64,000 nucleotides of DNA. Origin: Morchella semilibera (Eukaryota; Ascomycota; Pezizomycetes; Pezizales; Morchellaceae). Numbering within the stretch: the first letter of the stretch is position 1; each line of letters starts with the position of its first letter. The notes under the pieces were generated by a model. The model ran no database searches, was not told where the DNA came from, and worked only from the letters and a program-made list of their open reading frames with translations. Below are positions 17,621 to 31,100 of the stretch, one piece after another. A program made the position numbers and the translations under genes. Where the stretch lies: positions 3,627,973 to 3,691,972 of the forward strand of contig WBVU01000003.1 of assembly GCA_009192285.1 (NCBI GenBank). Reading direction: 5' to 3'.

Positions 17621-19010
17621 CTAATCATCAGATGCCTCCTTCATCAGCGTTTGTCGTCCTCTCCTCACTCTCTCCCCCAAGTCTAGATTTCCAGCTTTCC
17701 TATTGACTCCGGTCAAAAATTCGCCCTTGCCTCCGTATTTGCTATTTCGCATCCTCGCAGCCTCCTCTTTCTCATGCTCAGCCTTCTCTTTCTCTGAAAT
17801 CTCCGCCAAGCGCTTCACGCGCTCTGCGTTCATTTGGTCTGCGTTACTCTGCATGGCTGCTAATTTTCTTGCCCTTTCCTCCTCAATATTCCCATTCCCA
17901 TTCCCATTCCCATTTCCGTTTCTGTTTCTGTTCTCGTGGCCATTTCCGTTGGAACGATTTACGTAAGGCTGTCGTTGAGACCTTGATCTATAATCCCCAT
18001 TATCACGTGGTGGAGGGACTGGAGAGTGCCGGCGTGGGGAACGGGAAGGTGGATGCCGGTGAGAGCTCGATCCGTTGCGGTGACCAGTTGGTGGCGATCT
18101 AGTGCGTCTACGCTCGTAATCAGGAGAGCTACGGCGACGGTAATCGCGGCCCTCGCGGCGAGGTGATCTTGATCGGGACGGCGCTCGCGATTTTGATGTT
18201 GCCCTACGACGAGGTGGCGTCGATGATCGAGAGCGAGAGCGAGAGCGCGAGGAGGAGTGTCTGCGACGGTGATGGTGCCTCTTATCGTCATCTCTTCGAC
18301 TACTCCTTCGGCTGCGGTCGTCATCACGATGGCTACTTCTTCGTGAACTCCTATCATCATCGCGGTGCCGATGGCTCCTGTGTTTCCTGTCCCTTTCTTT
18401 GTCACGGCTATCTCTGCTCCTCTCCTTGCCACCCTCCGCGGCCTCCTTCAACTGCCTCCTTTTTGCAGGATCCTTCATGATAGCCTCATAAGCAGCCTGC
18501 TCCTGTCTCTTAATAGCCAACAGGGGATCCTCTCTGATTTTGTTTGCCGTATCCCTCACGGTATTGGCATTCTGGATAGCCATAAAGGACGTCTCAGACG
18601 CTTGCTTGCTCAGCTTTTCATTATCGCTCCCCTTTAATAGTGGGTCAATCCTGCGTTTTCCGAGCAGATATGCCTCCATCTCATCCGTAGTTCGGTCCAT
18701 CCCCTGTGAGGGTCCACTATACAAGAACTCGACACGGTCTAGCACCTTTTTTCCCCCGGCGGCCTCCTGTAGCTGTCGGAGCTCTTGGAGCTGTCGCTCC
18801 TCTTCTCTTTCTTTACGCCATTGCTCGGTTCGCTTGCGTTCTTCGAGCGCTTTATTTTCCTCTTGCCAGACGCGCTCTTGGTTCTTAAGTAGATGGGGAT
18901 GCCACGATTTTTTCAAATTAAGGTCCTACAAAGGCGGCGATGAGGTGTTAGCTGGATGTGTCAACTGATGTACATGGAAAGAAAATGGGGGGATAACTTA
19001 CACCACCCAT
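17621..19010 (-). CDS. CWC25: Pre-mRNA-splicing factor Cwc25
   Basis: The product is 437 residues from a 9-nt first exon (19002-19010, encoding MGG) and a long second exon (17621-18925). The join gives [13 protein letters not shown], the invariant N-terminus of Cwc25, which settles the start. A charged coiled-coil region (about residues 15-70) leads into [16 protein letters not shown] and the GKRRIDPLL segment, both diagnostic. The middle is rich in RS/RD/RR dipeptides. A Gly-Asn tract arises from a CCCATT-type hexamer repeat at about 17888-17932. The end is [20 protein letters not shown]-like, also conserved. Cwc25 joins the spliceosome after Prp2 and promotes the first transesterification. 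The RS content exceeds that of the yeast protein, as is usual in filamentous fungi. Confidence 0.93.
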
Positions 19011-19471: not shown

Positions 19472-22288
19472 CTATTCTTGTTCAGAGGAATTTACCCCTT
19501 CTCTCAGCAACAAAACGGCGACGAAAAGAGCAATCCAAGCACTAAGAGCGAGAATACTAAGACCCCAAGTACCCCACACCAATGCTGAAGCCCTTTTCGG
19601 TGTTGATAGTGCCGAGTTAGAGGGTTCAGTTTTAGGCACGGCCTCTACAAGATCAATATCGTTCTGATCGATCTTGGTGGAAGGTGAGGTATTTATGATA
19701 TCCTGCGTGGTGATTGCCTCTTTGTACAAGGCTTCCGTTTCACTGCTATCGCGCCTCACAGGGCGAGCCCTATCGAGGTTGTGATCTGGTTCAGGAAGTG
19801 CTTCCTTTTCGTCGTATTTCTGCTCGGTTTGGATCTCTCCTGTCTTTAGATCACTAAGATGCCCCTGACCAATATCCCTATCTCCCATAGAGCCATCTTC
19901 ACCCAGCTCTTTGATAGCAGCCCCAACTTTGTCAACTTGGGCTCCACTGGCTTTTTGGCCCTCTTCGGTCCTCTGATCTTCATCCTTTTTACAGCTGTTG
20001 ATTTTCCCGCCGTCATCAGTATCCTCAGTGTTTCCACCATCCCCGATATTCTCGTTGTCCTCGATACCGTAATTATCCTCATCGCTTTCAACCTCACCGT
20101 TCACATGATTATAGATATGCCCACATTTCCCAGCCTTTCCATCCATTGTTCTCTGTACCGGTTCGGCGCCACTAAAGAATTCGTTCAACTCGGATTGTTC
20201 TTGGCCATAATGGTCTTTAATCCCGCATTGGGGGTCATTGTTTGGGCCTGATCCAGGCTGAAAAGAGATGTTGTGGATACCGTCAAAGGCCGTCATAATC
20301 TCGCCTATAATCTCACCTGAAGTCGAAGCTATATCAATACCATCTTCTATATAGAAAAAAGAAAAAGGGGAATGTAGAAACCCACTTCCAGGCTCAACGA
20401 ATAATCCAGGAGCGACCTTGCAATTTTTCAGTTTTGCCCCAGCCCCAACGATAACACTCTTCCCCAAAATACACCCCTCAACACTCGAACCCTCCGCTAC
20501 TGAAGCTCCATCCATGAGTACAGACTCCAATACCCTGGCCTCTTTACCGATAGAAACGCCGAACCCTAAGACAGAGCTTTTGATAAATGACTTCCCAGCA
20601 ATGGAAACTTTTCCTGCTATTAGACAGTCTTCTTTATTAATTATAGCCGTTTTGTCGATTGAGGCAGACGGATTTATCTTAATCTGGCCAGATTTGAAAG
20701 CAGGACTTGCTATGTAGAGACAGATCGAGTGATATAAATGAACTGTATCGACACGCCGCGTGAAATTTCTTGACCGCTCTGGGAGATATACAATCATAGG
20801 CGGGATCTTGATACCACCCGGGGGAGGGGGTGGTGGTGGTGGTGGTCCCTTTCTGGTGGATGATTCTGGGACAAGAGGTTTTTTGGACACCGCTACCCCA
20901 TTCTTTAGCTTCTCCAATACCCCTAAATCTAATGCTGAGTATACTCGTTGTAAATCTAGGTCTTGCTGAGTCCATTGTGTAATATCTCGTTTCCTAGTAG
21001 AACTCATCTCTGCGAGGTTAAGCGTTTGCTCAAAAGCGCCCCCTCCCTCAGAAAGGATATCAAGAAGGCCCAGTTTCTTGGCAAGCCGTCTATTCTGCCA
21101 ACGAGCTTTAGACCACCATGGGAGAACATCCTCACGAATTGAGTTCATTTTCGGATTCTTGTCAATGAATCTGAGAATCCAGAAAGGGAGGAAGTAGATA
21201 CCGCTGTCGCGAACGTTCAAGTTGATTTGGACGTCGGGGCACTTTCTGATAAATGATTTGCGGAATGGGTATCCGCCCTTACTGGTAAACTCCTGACCCG
21301 GGAGATTATGCAAGAGTGACTTGAGAGCACCAGAGAATTGAGATTCGGGGGTGGATCCTATACTTGGTTCACGATGTGGAGCAAGGGCCAAGAGGTCGGT
21401 TTCTGTCAGTTGTCAGCCTGATTAATCGATTAGGCAGAAAGTAGCCGTAAGAACATATGTACCTTGTCCCTTTACCTGCCCTGCTCCCATAACGTCATAC
21501 CAAATACCTAAGCCCCCTCTCCTTTCATCATCCTCACGGCAATTGACAGTATCTATATTTCGTTTACCCATATCGCTATCGAAGCCAGCATTTTCAACCA
21601 TCCAGATCCTCACAAGCTCTTCAGGGTCTAAATCAGTGATAAGGTCACACGGCAACACTACAATATCCCCTGTCACCCATCCTTTCCTATAAGCCCTTCT
21701 TAAAACATCCGCAGTGCCTAGGTTTTCATCCAGGGCCGATGGGCCCTCAATTTGGATTTTGAATGGCAATGTTTGGGAGTGAACATATGCCTGAATTTGG
21801 GCAAGATGCTCAGAAAGCGTAATGATCAGGATTGCTGGAAATTGAATAAAAGGAGATTAGTATTATTTAACTCCAAAGAGCTGTGTTAATGTAGGCAGTA
21901 ATAGTAAGACAAGGCCGAAAGGATTTTCCCAACATACATTCAAACCGGGCTTTTTGACACCATTCAAGAGGGTATTGAATCATCGGCTTGTTCGCAATAG
22001 GAATGAGTGCTTTAGGCAACAGTTCATCTCCAGTAAATGGGTAGAGGGAGGTCCCAGGCCCACAGAGGATGACGGCTTGAAAACCAGGCCCGGGGGGACC
22101 AAGCTTCTTCCCCCTTTGCTCTTTCTCACCTCTTTCTATTGCTATTTTAGTTGGGATAGGCCCTGGAGCTCCTATGTCTCCGATAGCTCTTGTATTTTCG
22201 GTGCCTATAGTAACTCCCGCATCTCCAGTGGCCCCGTAGATTTTGTGAGCTTGGCGATTTGTGTGATGCCCATTACTGATGAGTTCAT
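19472..22288 (-). CDS. GCD1: Translation initiation factor eIF2B subunit gamma with C-terminal acidic, membrane-anchored extension
   Basis: Exons are about 22288-21938, 21834-21463 and 21402-19472, giving roughly 880 residues against about 460-580 in yeasts. The N-terminal nucleotidyltransferase-like domain shows GFQAVILCGPGTS, PKALIPIANKPMIQYPLEWC, AILIITLSEH, VVLPCDLITDL and NVRDSGIYFLPFWILRFI. Left-handed beta-helix hexapeptides follow (SIDKTAIINKEDCLIAG, VSIGKEARVLESVLMDGA). Gamma normally ends soon after these. Here the frame continues about 300 residues, acidic and disordered, to one hydrophobic helix (WGTWGLSILALSAWIALFVA) about 12 residues before the stop. The 5' end is unsettled: the frame feeding GFQAV has no ATG, and the nearby ATG at 22288 would need one extra base or an unseen intron. 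A 39-nt GT-AG segment (about 20346-20384) could be an in-frame intron. Confidence 0.85.
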
Positions 22289-22998
22289 AATGTTTTGATC
22301 TCTAATAATTCTTGATTGTGGCTCATATACAGCCGAGGACGTATATTAAATAGATGGCTGGGATTGTGGAAATAAAGCTTGAGATGTAGAGGTTGAGTCT
22401 GGTGTAGAGAGGTTGAGTCTGGTGCAGAGAGGTAGAGGTGCAGAGGAGGTGGAGGTTTGGAGGTGTGGAGGTTGAGAAGGTAGGTAGTAAGTAGTAAGGG
22501 CAAGGGGGGCTGCCAGATACCCAATTTGCAGGTATTTATTGAACCTTTGAACGCAGGGTGTAATACTATAGAATTTCAAGTAGGCGGTCGATTGTTACTA
22601 CATAGTACGTACATATGTGGTCTGAATGAGACGCACTAGGCGAGCGGACAACAGTTTGTGACTGCGTGTGCCTATGTACGTGTAGCTGTCAAGCTTAGAA
22701 ACAACGGTGGTGCTTGCATAGAAGTTTGGGTGTACTAAACCTTAAGGTCCCGTGACCATAAATTGAAGGGGCTCTGCCAGCCTACTCACACAACGCGAAT
22801 TGTCAACGCTAATTCTCGAATATATAAGAACTTAATGGCATACGACTATAGTTACTGGGGTTTAGCGTCCAAGTGATCGAAACATTTATCAGGCTCGCAA
22901 ACACGCCTTATGCGCTTGTGGTTAAGCAAACACTGCTCCAGTCCATCTATAATCCCCAGTGAAATAGGTAACCAATTTATTCCCAATTATAAATACAT
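22289..22998. other. Spacer between eIF2B gamma and PAN2
   Basis: The interval contains the eIF2B gamma promoter, including a purine-rich stretch with repeated GGTTGAGTCTGGTG-like units (22393-22427), and the PAN2 3' flank. No gene was recognised. Confidence 0.55.
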
Positions 22999-25900
22999 TT
23001 ACGTGTTCGAAAGACACCTCATCATACTGCTGCGTGGTTGAGGGGTGTTAGCTTCGGATCTCTGATCGCGCAATATTGGTGGCGTGTCCATCCTATCTTG
23101 TCCCATCTCAGAAAGCACTCTTGATGGTGGTTTAAACCCCCATTTCATGCCCTCTACTTGGACATGATTCATCATGACCTCCATAATACCGGCATCTGTA
23201 AATTCCAGGTACTTCCGGTATAATTTGAGTGCTGTTGAGGAGTCCTCAATTGAGTCATGCGTTTTCAGCTGGATTTCTTCACCTAAGATAACCCACGCTA
23301 GAAAGCGAAGCGATAATTTTCTGTGACTATTAGTAGTTTTCTTGGGAGTGCAAGTTTTCTATAACTCCTTACCGGAAAGTTGTTTTTAGAGAGAATAAAT
23401 CGACTGTATCCACGACTTGTTCCTTGGGTACGTGGATATCTGTTCATAATCAGCACATCTTGTGTTATCCGGTAAAACAGTCATCTTGTTGGGGGCTAAA
23501 CTTACTAATAATTCTAAAATCTTTCAACAATCCGTGGCCCACAAACACACATCCTAGATTCAATAATAGCCATAATCGTTTGTATGCCACCTTGAGTGGT
23601 ACCAACGCATGCCTGGACTGCATTGGGTCAAGATCACCAACATGAATCCCCGAGAACTCAGTTAAATAATCCACAACTGGCTCCTTGGTGATGATATAAT
23701 CGTCCAGAAATGGGACTTCTTCATACTCTCCTTCCCCCCTAAGCACAGAAACCCTCGCAAGACCTAGTCTGCTAGGCCGTATAACAGAGCGTGAGCCGTC
23801 CGCCTTGACCTCAATTTCTTCGTTTTGCATTGAAACGAATTCCGCGTCCAACGCAACGAGCATTCCTGGTCTCGGCCCCTCATCTGGTGTGAGTGGCTTG
23901 TATTTTGCTTCCCTATACACCTCGCGTTTTCTGGGCCCCCTGAAGTCAGCCAACTCAAATGAGATGGGTACTTTGGGTCTTTCAAATATATACCCGTATG
24001 TTAAATCGTGATAAAGTAGACTGGTGTCTAAATGGTTTTTCCAAGAATTGTCGACAACGTTGCTAGCAGATTTTACCTGATAGCATAGAACTGATGGCAT
24101 TTTCCATTTAGGCGTAAAGTCTAATGCATCCTCCTTAGAGACAGGCCTGACCATAAAATCGTTGAACATGTGCCAGTTATTGTCCTCAGTACGCTCGGCC
24201 GATGAAAGAGCAACTACAATGACACATCATTAGGATCTTGCAAATCGTCCGAATAAAGGAAACCACAGAAGGCCAAACCGTTAACGAAAGAGATAAGATG
24301 TGAATTTCGAGATTCTTCCAACCTAATCTCTGCTACAAAGCCGACGAGTTCATACACAATCAAAGTGCCACTTCTATCTCTTTCTTTCATGGCATTTAGA
24401 TCATCACCTTGATATATGTTTAACTGACTGTTAGTCACTACCATTCCAATTTCTTCAGGTAGCCACCCGGGCGTCGACCAATGATCCTTTGCAAAGCTCG
24501 CAGTCTTTTCGTGTGCAGTAGCATTAAACATCAATATTTTGGGCATCTTCCGAATTGTTTTCCGCATGACCTGTGTTTGGTAGCGACGACACTTATCACA
24601 CCACCCTTTCTGGTTTGTATCCAATTGGATGCTCTGCTTTGCAATGGCCGAGAAAGTCATGACTGGTTTATTTGGGACCTTTCTCTCTGATCAGCTAGGG
24701 AAATCCTAAAACAATATACCACATACCTTTGGAAGATAATTGAGATCAGTAACGTTAGTATCGCCCAGCGGACGTGTTTCCTTCCCACATACTACACATC
24801 GCTGAATCTTTGTAGCTGCAACATTAATGGCCTCTTCAAGCACAGTTGAACCAGGATCCCAGTTCCTTTGGTCCAACGAAACTTGATCTAGTAAAAAACG
24901 GTTCAGGCTCTGAATCATTGCTGTCAAAGATCCATTTCCCGAAGAATCTTCCTCAAGTACACCATGCCGAGCAGCTAAAGTTCCCCCAAGTCGGCCAGAA
25001 GATGCCGTGATCCTCTATTAGTACCGGAATTCATAGTGATTACAGAAGGGGCAAGGAAAAGCACACCAGTTGGTAAAGAGCTGAAGGTTTTCAGAAAGTT
25101 TGTAGCTTGACAATTTTGGCCATTCGCTTTGTCCAACATATCGAATAAAAAGCCCATTTGACATAACATACAGTCCTCTTTTGTACACGATGTGGCTGTA
25201 TGTTGGAGAGCCAAATTTCTTAATAGCGGTGTGAATTTGTACATCTGCAATAGTGGGTTCATATACGAGTTTGCAATGTGAGTCTCTAACCCCGAGAATC
25301 TTGTCTTGTTAAAATATCTATAGAAGAGATTAGTTACGAAGGCTCCTATTAAAAGATAATGTTTCGAGGATATGGCTCACTCAAAATCAAAATCATCAAC
25401 TCCAAACTTGCTGTATTTGATCTCAACTTTCCGGTACGCCGGCGGTACCTTCAAATTGTCTTCGTGCTTCATCCCCGAATAGCAATTTGGCATCACCGAA
25501 ATCCCCGGAATCTCTATTTTTATTCTTAGCCTGTTGGCTCAAGAACTTTGGCGCAGGGACGGGGGTGTCTGTGGGGGTTTTTTCAATACAATATCGGGGC
25601 GTCCTCTTATGGTACGGTGCATATCCTGTCTTTGCTGAAGCTTCTAATATATCCGAGTCAATCTTTGTGGTAGCTTATTCACATCAAAGACCATGTGAGG
25701 TGGCCAAGCGGACAAAAGTTCGTCATGATAGAACGGCATTCCTATGGTGTTAAGTGGTGTGTCTTCATTAACTATTACATTAGGCAATGGGTGAGGGTCT
25801 TGCCATTCCACAGGATTCATCAGTTCGGTAAACCTCATTTTATCTGGCGAGCCCCAGAGCTGTAGGTACCCATCTGCATCCATCAAAGCCAGTGCATCAC

Positions 25901-28103: not shown

Positions 28104-31100
28104 CTAGCAAATGATACAGGAAGCACCCCCTCTCTTCTTTCCCTCAGTCGCCTGCGCCCTCCCCTCTTGCCTCCTCCTCCTATCTCTAACATTAATCGCT
28201 GCACTTCTCTGCGCTCTGCTTCCTCTCCTGCTACCCCCACTACTTCTGACACTTCCTCCTCTGGTTGTACTCATTCCACGCCTTACACCACCAGTACCTG
28301 TAGTCGGTGCACCGGCGACATATGACTCTTGCAAAGCGACCCTTCGTCCCCGTGATGCAGACCTTGCAGGACTGGGCCGCCGCGTAGGAATTGGCCTGTA
28401 ATTCGGCGAGTCCCTCTGTGCGGGCGGTACTTCCGGTGATAGCATTGAAGTGTGGTATTGTCTGGGTGGAGGAGCTGTATGAGGCGGCTGTGGAGGCGGC
28501 AAGGCTTGTATTGGTGGCTGTATAGACTGTGTCTGAAGGTTTTGCTGCTGGGGTAACGGAGCGGAACGCTCTCTATATATGGCCGGGATTGGCGGGATAT
28601 TTGGAAAGTTCAGTGCATCTCCTGCGCTGCCTCTACGGACGTGGCTCTGCTGTGGTTGATCATGGCGCGGTTGACTCGTAGGGTACGTCCTTTGAGGCGG
28701 AAGGGTGCTACCAGGTAATGGGCCAGTTCTTGGGCCATTGAAAACTGATGGAGGCACCCCAACAGCAGGACTAACAGGCGCCGAACGGGATTGAGAAATA
28801 TTCCCTGCGCTGTAATTTGGGTGTATGGAAAGATGCGACTGAGAGGTTCCAGTGTTAACACTAGGCCTGAAAACGCTTGGCCGCCTCATCATATTCCCCA
28901 TAGTGCTTTCGATAGTCGTCCTAGTCCTCTGGAGCGTAGTCATTGTTCTTGATGGTGACTGAGATGGATTATCATTCAGAACATATGGTTCTGTCACACG
29001 AGGAGGCCCTTGTAATGTCAGAAGTAGATGCTCTGGCAATGGAAGGTTATCCTCGCTCCTTGGTGTATACGGCGGTGGTGGTGGAACCCAGGACGACCCA
29101 TCATCGTGCCTAATTTGCTGAGGAGCTGCTGCGTTTTGTGGCACAGGTCTGCCATCTGGTCCAAGTGCACGGGCATATCGGCCTCCAGTTGCCTGTTGAG
29201 GTGTGTTCCTAGCAGCTGTTGCAGCACGATGTAGAGTAGTTCTTGAGCGTGGCTCTCCTTGAGAATACGGCAAATCTATTGGCTCGGTAGACTCGTCTTC
29301 CTCATCGAAGGTTCGTTGTCTCCGTGCTGGGACGGGGCCAGGTGAAGTTCGCGGCGGTGCAGGGGAATGCAAGGCAGTCGGTAGTCTCGGTACAGGGGGG
29401 ATATAGCTATTACTGTGACTGCTCTCAGATGCACCTTGGGGACGCATGCTTCGTCTCCTATCGTTGTCCCTTTTCTGAGCTACAGTCCTGCGTCTGACGA
29501 TATCCACCTCCACTTCGATGTCGTTATGTTGCTCCTCAAGGGTTTCGACTGGCCCTTGTATTCCATCTCCAATTTCAATGGTAATTATCGTTTTCTCTGC
29601 TGTCTTTGGGGTACGTCCTAAATCATATAAAACCACTCGCCCACCTCCAATTGCCAGGAATTCCTCCTCTCCCCCTTCGCCGAGCATTCCATCGACTCCT
29701 CCGCCAGCCACGGCAACCAGTCTTTCTGTTCCATTGTTGCATTTGACGAATTTTATTCCAGACAACGCGTTAACGTCTCCAATTTCCCTGCCTCCAATAA
29801 ACACATTCCTCATCTTATCGCATAGTACCTGCCACTGGGGCATGACAATTGTTCCAAGCTGCCCACTAACCCAGTTTGGGGCCCTACCAGAAGTGCTGTT
29901 GCTCCTAGATGGGGCATTGGAACCATCCCCGTCCTGGCTCCCTGTTTCCGCTGGTAACTCTAACTTTCCAGGCACGCCATAGATCCAAATCTTCCCAGAG
30001 AACCCGGCCGCTACCATCCTCCCGTCCCCCGTAGGCGCAGGCAACGTGGTCGGCGCTAAGACGCCACTTTCGTCGCTGGGCCCTGTAAAATATGTGTGTC
30101 CGTTCCTCAAGTCATCAACCCTGACCGCCCTGAACGTTTCGTAAACCCGGTCATAGGTAAATGTCCAGGTATTCTCCCTATCATCTTCCTCCGGTAATAA
30201 ACTTGCATGACTACTATCCCTCGAACTTCTAGGGAAAAGAACTTGGGTTGTCCATAACTGTGCCAACCCTTCAAAAGGTAGGTCTGTTGAAAAATGCTGC
30301 GCGGACACCATAACGGTTGTAGGCGTTTTGCAGTTCAGCGTTGTGCCCACTAATATTGAACCATCCGGTGAAAAGGCCAAGGTATCGACAGTATCACAGT
30401 TTACTGCCCGACGATCGGTCGGGAGAGCATCCGGAAGCAATGAATAAACCTCTATGCCGCCATTAAAAGCTGCCCCAAGAACCTCTGCGCCTGGCGAGAG
30501 TGCGATAGTACGGGGTGCATTTTCAAGGGGAATGCTCTTTATGAGCTGTGCCTTTGTCTGGGTAAGATCGTAGAGTGTAACAGTATGATTCGAACTCAAG
30601 ACAGCAAGCATACTCCCGTCATCAACGATAGCTGCACACACTGGTCTCCTACTGATTTTCAGCTCACGTTTAACACAGATCTCCTCCACTGACAAATCTA
30701 GTACAAATATTCTACTCGAGCTTAAAGCTAATAGGCGTGTTCCTTTTGGCGAAAATTCGAATCTAAAGGCCTCGCCTCCAGGAAAAGCAGCGGCCGAAGA
30801 CGAAGCCTGGCAGATGAGTTGGACTTCTGTGATCCGTGGCCTTAACATGGTCTCGAATAGCTCACGACGCGCTTTTGCTGAGAACATTCTAATGAGCCCT
30901 GTTAATGAATCATCGGTAGGTTCCTCTGGGACATCGGTTGCACCACATTGCTTCAGTTGATGGGCATAGAGTCGTGGGCTTCGTGAGGCTTGGTGCCACT
31001 TTGAATTAAGAAGAGTGAGAGAATCGAAAGTATTCGGATCAGCCGCGTATAGGATTCTATTTTATGATTAGTTTGGTTTTCTCGATGTTGCCAGACTTTG

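Follow-up and report, generated by a model that had tools for sequence, protein, structure and literature searches.

A gene of Morchella semilibera at about 22085-19472 (minus strand) encodes a homologue of the gamma subunit of eIF2B, the frame of which continues behind the beta-helix through a long acidic region into a hydrophobic segment close to the stop codon, and we read it, with a probability of roughly 0.5, as a diverged, tail-anchored second gamma that could bring the gamma-epsilon pair or the whole of eIF2B to a membrane. The integrated stress response acts on eIF2B, which controls how fast translation is initiated. Coordinates refer to the window, i.e. the whole stretch of 64,000 nucleotides that was analysed, unless another contig is named; searches of the organism's own genome covered 56.8 Mb in 23 contigs. 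A preliminary description of the locus, made from the letters of the window, had recognised the layout of a tail-anchored protein and had taken the gene for the cell's eIF2B gamma. The layout is indeed there, but the gamma gene on contig C11 is more canonical than the one in the window. The feature is real and is better called a tail-anchor-bearing paralogue than the organism's eIF2B gamma.

The relationship to eIF2B gamma was established by comparison with solved PDB chains. The open reading frame 21391-19472 (minus strand) matches the gamma subunits of S. pombe (5b04_E, E = 4.1e-15), human (6caj_J, 9e-11), and yeast (6i3m_I, 1.7e-9), and the spliced protein, with its upstream exons joined by homology and without the tail, matches 5b04_E at 6.7e-43. 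The tail-less protein reached 150 bits against S. pombe gamma, 103 against human gamma, 101 against a second human construct, 84 against yeast gamma, and 51 against yeast epsilon, the last match (1e-12) being far weaker than the one to S. pombe gamma. Judged by sequence comparison, the gene is homologous to known gamma chains over both domains, and more closely so than to epsilon. The Pfam model for the eIF2B beta-helix, PF25084, which is named for the epsilon subunit, gave the window gamma 44.5 and 48.9 bits, below the gathering score of 54, and the C11 gamma 54.3 bits, barely above it; this score is not treated here as a defining feature of eIF2B gamma. The protein model comprises 793 amino acids counted from GFQAVILCGPG and includes two upstream exons that were added by homology. 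The parts of the gene and the position of its counterpart are as follows:

21938-22085, minus strand: exon 1, starting with GFQAVILCGPG, from homology to the C11 copy and to PDB gamma chains
21835-21937, minus strand: intron 1, 103 nt, GTATGT..CAG, by homology; intron 1 of the C11 gene shares its codon and phase
21463-21834, minus strand: exon 2, nucleotidyltransferase-like domain, by homology
21403-21462, minus strand: intron 2, 60 nt, GTACAT..CAG, by homology, absent from the C11 gene
20386-21402, minus strand: exon 3, remaining nucleotidyltransferase-like domain, linker, and left-handed beta-helix, by homology
20819-20845, minus strand: nine consecutive prolines in the interdomain linker, read from the bases and the alignment, absent from the C11 copy
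20317-20385, minus strand: intron 3, inferred from homology only, GTGGGT..TTCAG, 69 nt that keep the frame and contain no stop
19472-20316, minus strand: exon 4, short C-terminal gamma motif, acidic tail, hydrophobic segment, and stop
19505-19585, minus strand: hydrophobic segment ALVWGTWGLSILALSAWIALFVAVLLL, 27 residues, putative tail anchor, from hydropathy
19475-19504, minus strand: polar C-terminus REGVNSSEQE, 10 residues
L018:5233-7275 (contig C11): canonical-looking eIF2B gamma gene

Around intron 3, the window gene reads LFVEPG, then the 69 nt GTGGGT..TTCAG, and then SEIIGEIMTAFDGIHN; the C11 gene reads VVEEG, an intron, and AEAKNERFVAFTGLDG, after which its acidic tail follows. The stretch 20385-20317 is very likely an intron, since its removal gives a gap-free alignment with the C11 protein at this place. 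The tail had been assigned to the interval 19472..20350, the first 34 bases of which (20350-20317) probably belong to intron 3. A CTRAY branch site was read by eye in four of the five introns inferred in the two gamma genes. The run of nine prolines could dock proline-binding proteins. Directly downstream of the gene, a CWC25 splicing factor gene is located (17624-18925); the window further contains a strong sestrin match in a fungal genome (8931-11231; PF04636, E = 7.6e-65) and a 985-residue protein with a DUF7165 domain (28107-31061; E = 4.1e-158).

When its own genome was searched with the window gamma, the protein found itself and a second gamma gene on contig C11 (2.5e-70). Three other matches were weak, namely the epsilon gene (3.1e-6), a broken frame (0.01), and a third beta-helix protein (0.15), which passes the Pfam cut-off for the beta-helix and is a mannose-1-phosphate guanylyltransferase. 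The C11 gamma has 635 residues, an ATG start, and two introns. On one side of its gene is a HEL2-like frame, in which a PAH domain of the ZNF598 type occurs, and on the other are PEX10-like frames with Pex2/Pex12 and RING domains. With 173 bits against S. pombe gamma, 127 and 126 against the human and the second human construct, and 96 against yeast gamma, the C11 protein outscores the tail-less window gamma against all four solved gamma sequences. Of the 103 columns with the same residue in the S. pombe and human gamma segments, 62 are retained in the C11 copy and 54 in the window copy. Over 567 aligned positions the two copies have an identity of 48%, and the codon and phase of introns 1 and 3 in the window gene correspond to those of introns 1 and 2 (the last) in the C11 gene. 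NSIREDVLPWWSKA and TRRVDTVHLY are identical in both copies, and the two longest identical motifs lie in the gamma domains. The existence of a second gamma, the 48% identity, and the shared introns together mark the gene in the window as a diverged paralogue rather than the only gamma of the cell. For epsilon, one gene was found, with a W2 domain, an acidic end, and no hydrophobic helix, and PF01008, the family of the alpha, beta, and delta subunits, matches at four places in the genome, one of which we take, by its motif, to be the related enzyme MtnA. Only gamma appears to be doubled; the other eIF2B genes look single.

The tail of the window gene is open for 280 codons (20314 to 19475) and, ahead of the hydrophobic segment, comprises 240 residues with a net charge of -31. 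It had been supposed that gamma normally stops after the beta-helix, which is contradicted by the C11 copy and by yeast Gcd1: the acidic tail of the former spans 131 residues counted from AEAKNERFVAFTGLDG, with a net charge of -30 and without a hydrophobic segment, and the C-terminus of the latter likewise continues into an acidic end. An acidic end therefore seems ordinary in fungal gammas, and the membrane helix would be the paralogue's own. Hydropathy analysis yielded a single strong segment, at the C-terminus, as the preliminary description had expected. The best Kyte-Doolittle mean over 19 residues (KD19) in the 793-residue model is 2.71, at 10 residues before the stop (best KD19 of the C11 gamma, 1.18), and all 13 windows above 1.6 fall in this segment of the model, the N-terminus of which may be incomplete. 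On the biological insertion scale, the sum over the best 19 residues amounts to -3.6 kcal/mol, which predicts insertion. The segment is preceded at a short distance by KR and directly followed by a single R, and three acidic residues are present among the last ten. Homology, the open frame, and hydropathy thus confirm the course of the frame as first described, from eIF2B gamma through the acidic region to a hydrophobic helix, polar residues, and the stop; its dimensions were revised, the helix having 27 residues instead of ~23 and the polar end 10 instead of about 12.

An AlphaFold model, calculated from a two-sequence alignment that contained the intron-3 peptide and lacked exons 1 and 2, had a mean pLDDT of 34.9. 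It showed strands in the region of the beta-helix (blocks at 52-65), residues 374-598 as coil, and a single C-terminal helix at 599-636. These low-confidence strands, coil, and helix fit the tail-anchor reading and are too poor for a fold comparison. The RNA fold at the 3' end of the gene was unremarkable (z -1.18). As far as can be judged from these predictions, the layout is that of a tail-anchored protein, i.e. one hydrophobic segment near the C-terminus. Fusion with a neighbouring tail-anchored gene had been offered as an alternative origin of the tail; it found no backing, as the tail matched only itself in the genome and nothing in Pfam, NCBIfam (a prokaryote library), or the PDB sequences. 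No relatives were found in the non-fungal collections of viral contigs and genome contigs.

There is good support for coding through the acidic tail. The training set of the coding statistics consisted of 17 long, unverified frames of the window and of L018-L020 with 7503 codons in all, from which the window gamma gene was left out and in which the C11 gamma was included; the annotated frame of the tail outscored the two other forward frames in 15 of the 17 overlapping windows of 30 codons. In the last two windows, where the helix lies, it scored -0.02 and -0.05, and the best antisense frame was higher, at 0.08 and 0.17. The synonymous-choice score along the tail was uninformative. For the helix, whose codons show no positive coding score, the argument for coding is that the frame is open and directly continuous.

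The same scores are what would be expected if the hydrophobic end were a neutral C-terminal extension that arose from T-rich former 3' sequence, in which case the paralogue would be real and its helix would have no membrane job. Such an origin is also favoured by the hydrophobic character of another reading frame of the same helix bases and by the frequency of similar ends among 355 comparison frames (stop-to-stop, 60-199 amino acids, from the same window, unsorted and mostly spurious), 17 of which reach a KD19 of at least 2.0 within the last 45 residues and one of which reaches 2.71. The chance rate of comparable hydrophobic ends is accordingly modest, at 0.3-5% of the other frames; none of 20000 shuffled tails attained 2.71, shuffling being a weak control. 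A table row of PMC4494051 moreover lists yeast GCD1 among the genes with a frameshift-derived change of the C-terminus, which, as far as this row goes, suggests that changes there are tolerated. On the other hand, an end as hydrophobic as that of the paralogue was met in just the one comparison frame, and the segment is located 10 residues from the stop with its charged flank on the side expected to face the cytosol. A neutral extension is in our view unlikely.

The 5' end of the gene raises a different question, i.e. whether the paralogue is a defective gene which has lost its start codon and from which no full protein is made. The frame of exon 1 is open from 22301, after a stop ending at 22302, and no in-frame ATG is present between this stop and MIQYP (residue 35 of the model). 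The upstream exons enumerated (30 of the 146 candidates; all up to 300 nt) required either a long intron or poor sites, and there is little room for such an exon, since PAN2 lies just upstream. The C-terminal part of PAN2, a deadenylase subunit, occupies 23000-24226 on the same strand, with its end near 23000 by reading. The best-scored upstream ATG among the candidates listed (23184) lies inside the PAN2 end according to a reading of the bases and was rejected. All of this would suit a defective gene, but the 216 bases 5' of exon 1 are open with a coding score of 0.10, so that an exon may plausibly have been missed or translation may start at a codon other than AUG, and the frame is otherwise open over all 793 codons despite saturated synonymous change (dN 0.39 over 496 codons between the window and C11 copies; dS saturated, NG86 returning -1). 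A gene unselected for so long would be expected to hold stops, and the paralogue has probably been under selection. A defective gene is improbable on these grounds; the lack of a start codon may go back to an overlooked exon, a start other than AUG, an error in the bases, or a recent loss.

For the preferred reading, a tail-anchored second gamma, we infer the following sequence of events beyond the anatomy of the sequence. A protein would be made from the window paralogue, and its last 37 residues would insert post-translationally as a tail anchor, by the GET or the EMC route; a Get3-type gene (ArsA_ATPase) is present in the genome. According to the positive-inside rule and the general rules for tail anchors, the KR and R flanks, the three acidic residues, and the high hydrophobicity make the ER a likelier destination than the mitochondrion or the peroxisome. 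The bulk of the anchored gamma would stay in the cytosol, on an acidic leash of roughly 240 residues which would let the gamma domains pair with epsilon. A fraction of gamma-epsilon or of complete eIF2B could then work beside the membrane and the C11 gamma could serve the cytosol; with two gamma genes, tethering would be confined to the part of eIF2B that has the paralogue as its gamma. Local recycling of eIF2 might thereby be raised, held, or shut off, e.g. for ER-bound translation. It is a tentative idea that the duplication provided a dedicated membrane-bound eIF2B, as decamers or as gamma-epsilon dimers with the anchored gamma, for eIF2 recycling at the ER surface, regulated apart from the cytosolic pool. 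Yeast offers two precedents for the preferred reading, the contact of epsilon and gamma with Ifa38 and the GCD1 entry on altered C-termini. The weak points of the tail-anchored paralogue are the start codon, the coding score of the helix, the occurrence of hydrophobic ends by chance, and the PF25084 score below the cut-off.

The anchored gamma might also have been neofunctionalised, acting outside eIF2B or as a sink that sequesters epsilon. The extent of divergence from the C11 copy, the smaller number of conserved columns retained, and the proline run in the linker would agree with such a role, but the placement of the two longest identical motifs within the gamma domains themselves does not, and we regard a role of this kind as quite improbable. 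Of the seven candidate intron pairs listed for the tail, 20097-19995 (donor GTGAGG, branch CTGAT) would reframe to a helix-less end through a mildly positive frame (0.11) but would remove bases scoring 0.59 in the acidic frame, the windows of which score 0.23-0.31 around it, and 19759-19585 (donor 19759, acceptor 19585, branch CTAAC) would lead into a frame with a score of -0.41 whose end is still hydrophobic. Removal or reframing of the helix by splicing or early polyadenylation in most transcripts is very unlikely.

If the anchored paralogue behaves as proposed, the presence of a soluble and a self-anchored gamma in one fungus would be a natural experiment on ER-bound versus cytosolic translation, and this fungus would possess a built-in, compartmentalised integrated stress response. 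The question of whether cells regulate initiation separately at membranes is not settled; for yeast, a link of eIF2B to the ER by way of a partner protein has been described. The primary paper on this link, by Browne et al. (2013), names ER membranes in its title. In the open-licence literature, no title or abstract among the matches listed dealt with a membrane-anchored or duplicated eIF2B gamma. The preliminary description knew of no report of a membrane tether of eIF2B, which agrees with these matches as regards a built-in anchor, but membrane association of eIF2B is not wholly undescribed, since in yeast an interaction with Ifa38 has been noted.

Several known systems share part of this architecture. 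Like the tail-anchored proteins that are inserted by GET or EMC, the window gamma carries one hydrophobic segment, in roughly its last 40 residues; to our knowledge, none of these proteins is an eIF2B subunit. With the established gammas, i.e. Gcd1, S. pombe gamma, and human EIF2B3, it has in common the nucleotidyltransferase-like domain and the left-handed beta-helix, and with Gcd1 of S. cerevisiae also the acidic C-terminal end, whereas the existence as a second copy, the proline run in the linker, and the 240-residue acidic tail with its hydrophobic segment are its own. The C11 gamma resembles it in the domains, two intron positions, and the acidic tail and differs in the absence of the hydrophobic segment, the shorter tail, and the ATG start. 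The closest functional parallel concerns Ifa38 (YBR159W): an excerpt of PMC7948505 describes an interaction of the catalytic epsilon and gamma subunits of yeast eIF2B with this enzyme of very-long-chain fatty acid synthesis and the appearance of microfoci once the interaction is abrogated. In both cases the catalytic gamma/epsilon side would be tied to the ER, in yeast to an ER enzyme as partner protein and in the window gamma, if the reading is true, through the subunit's own anchor.
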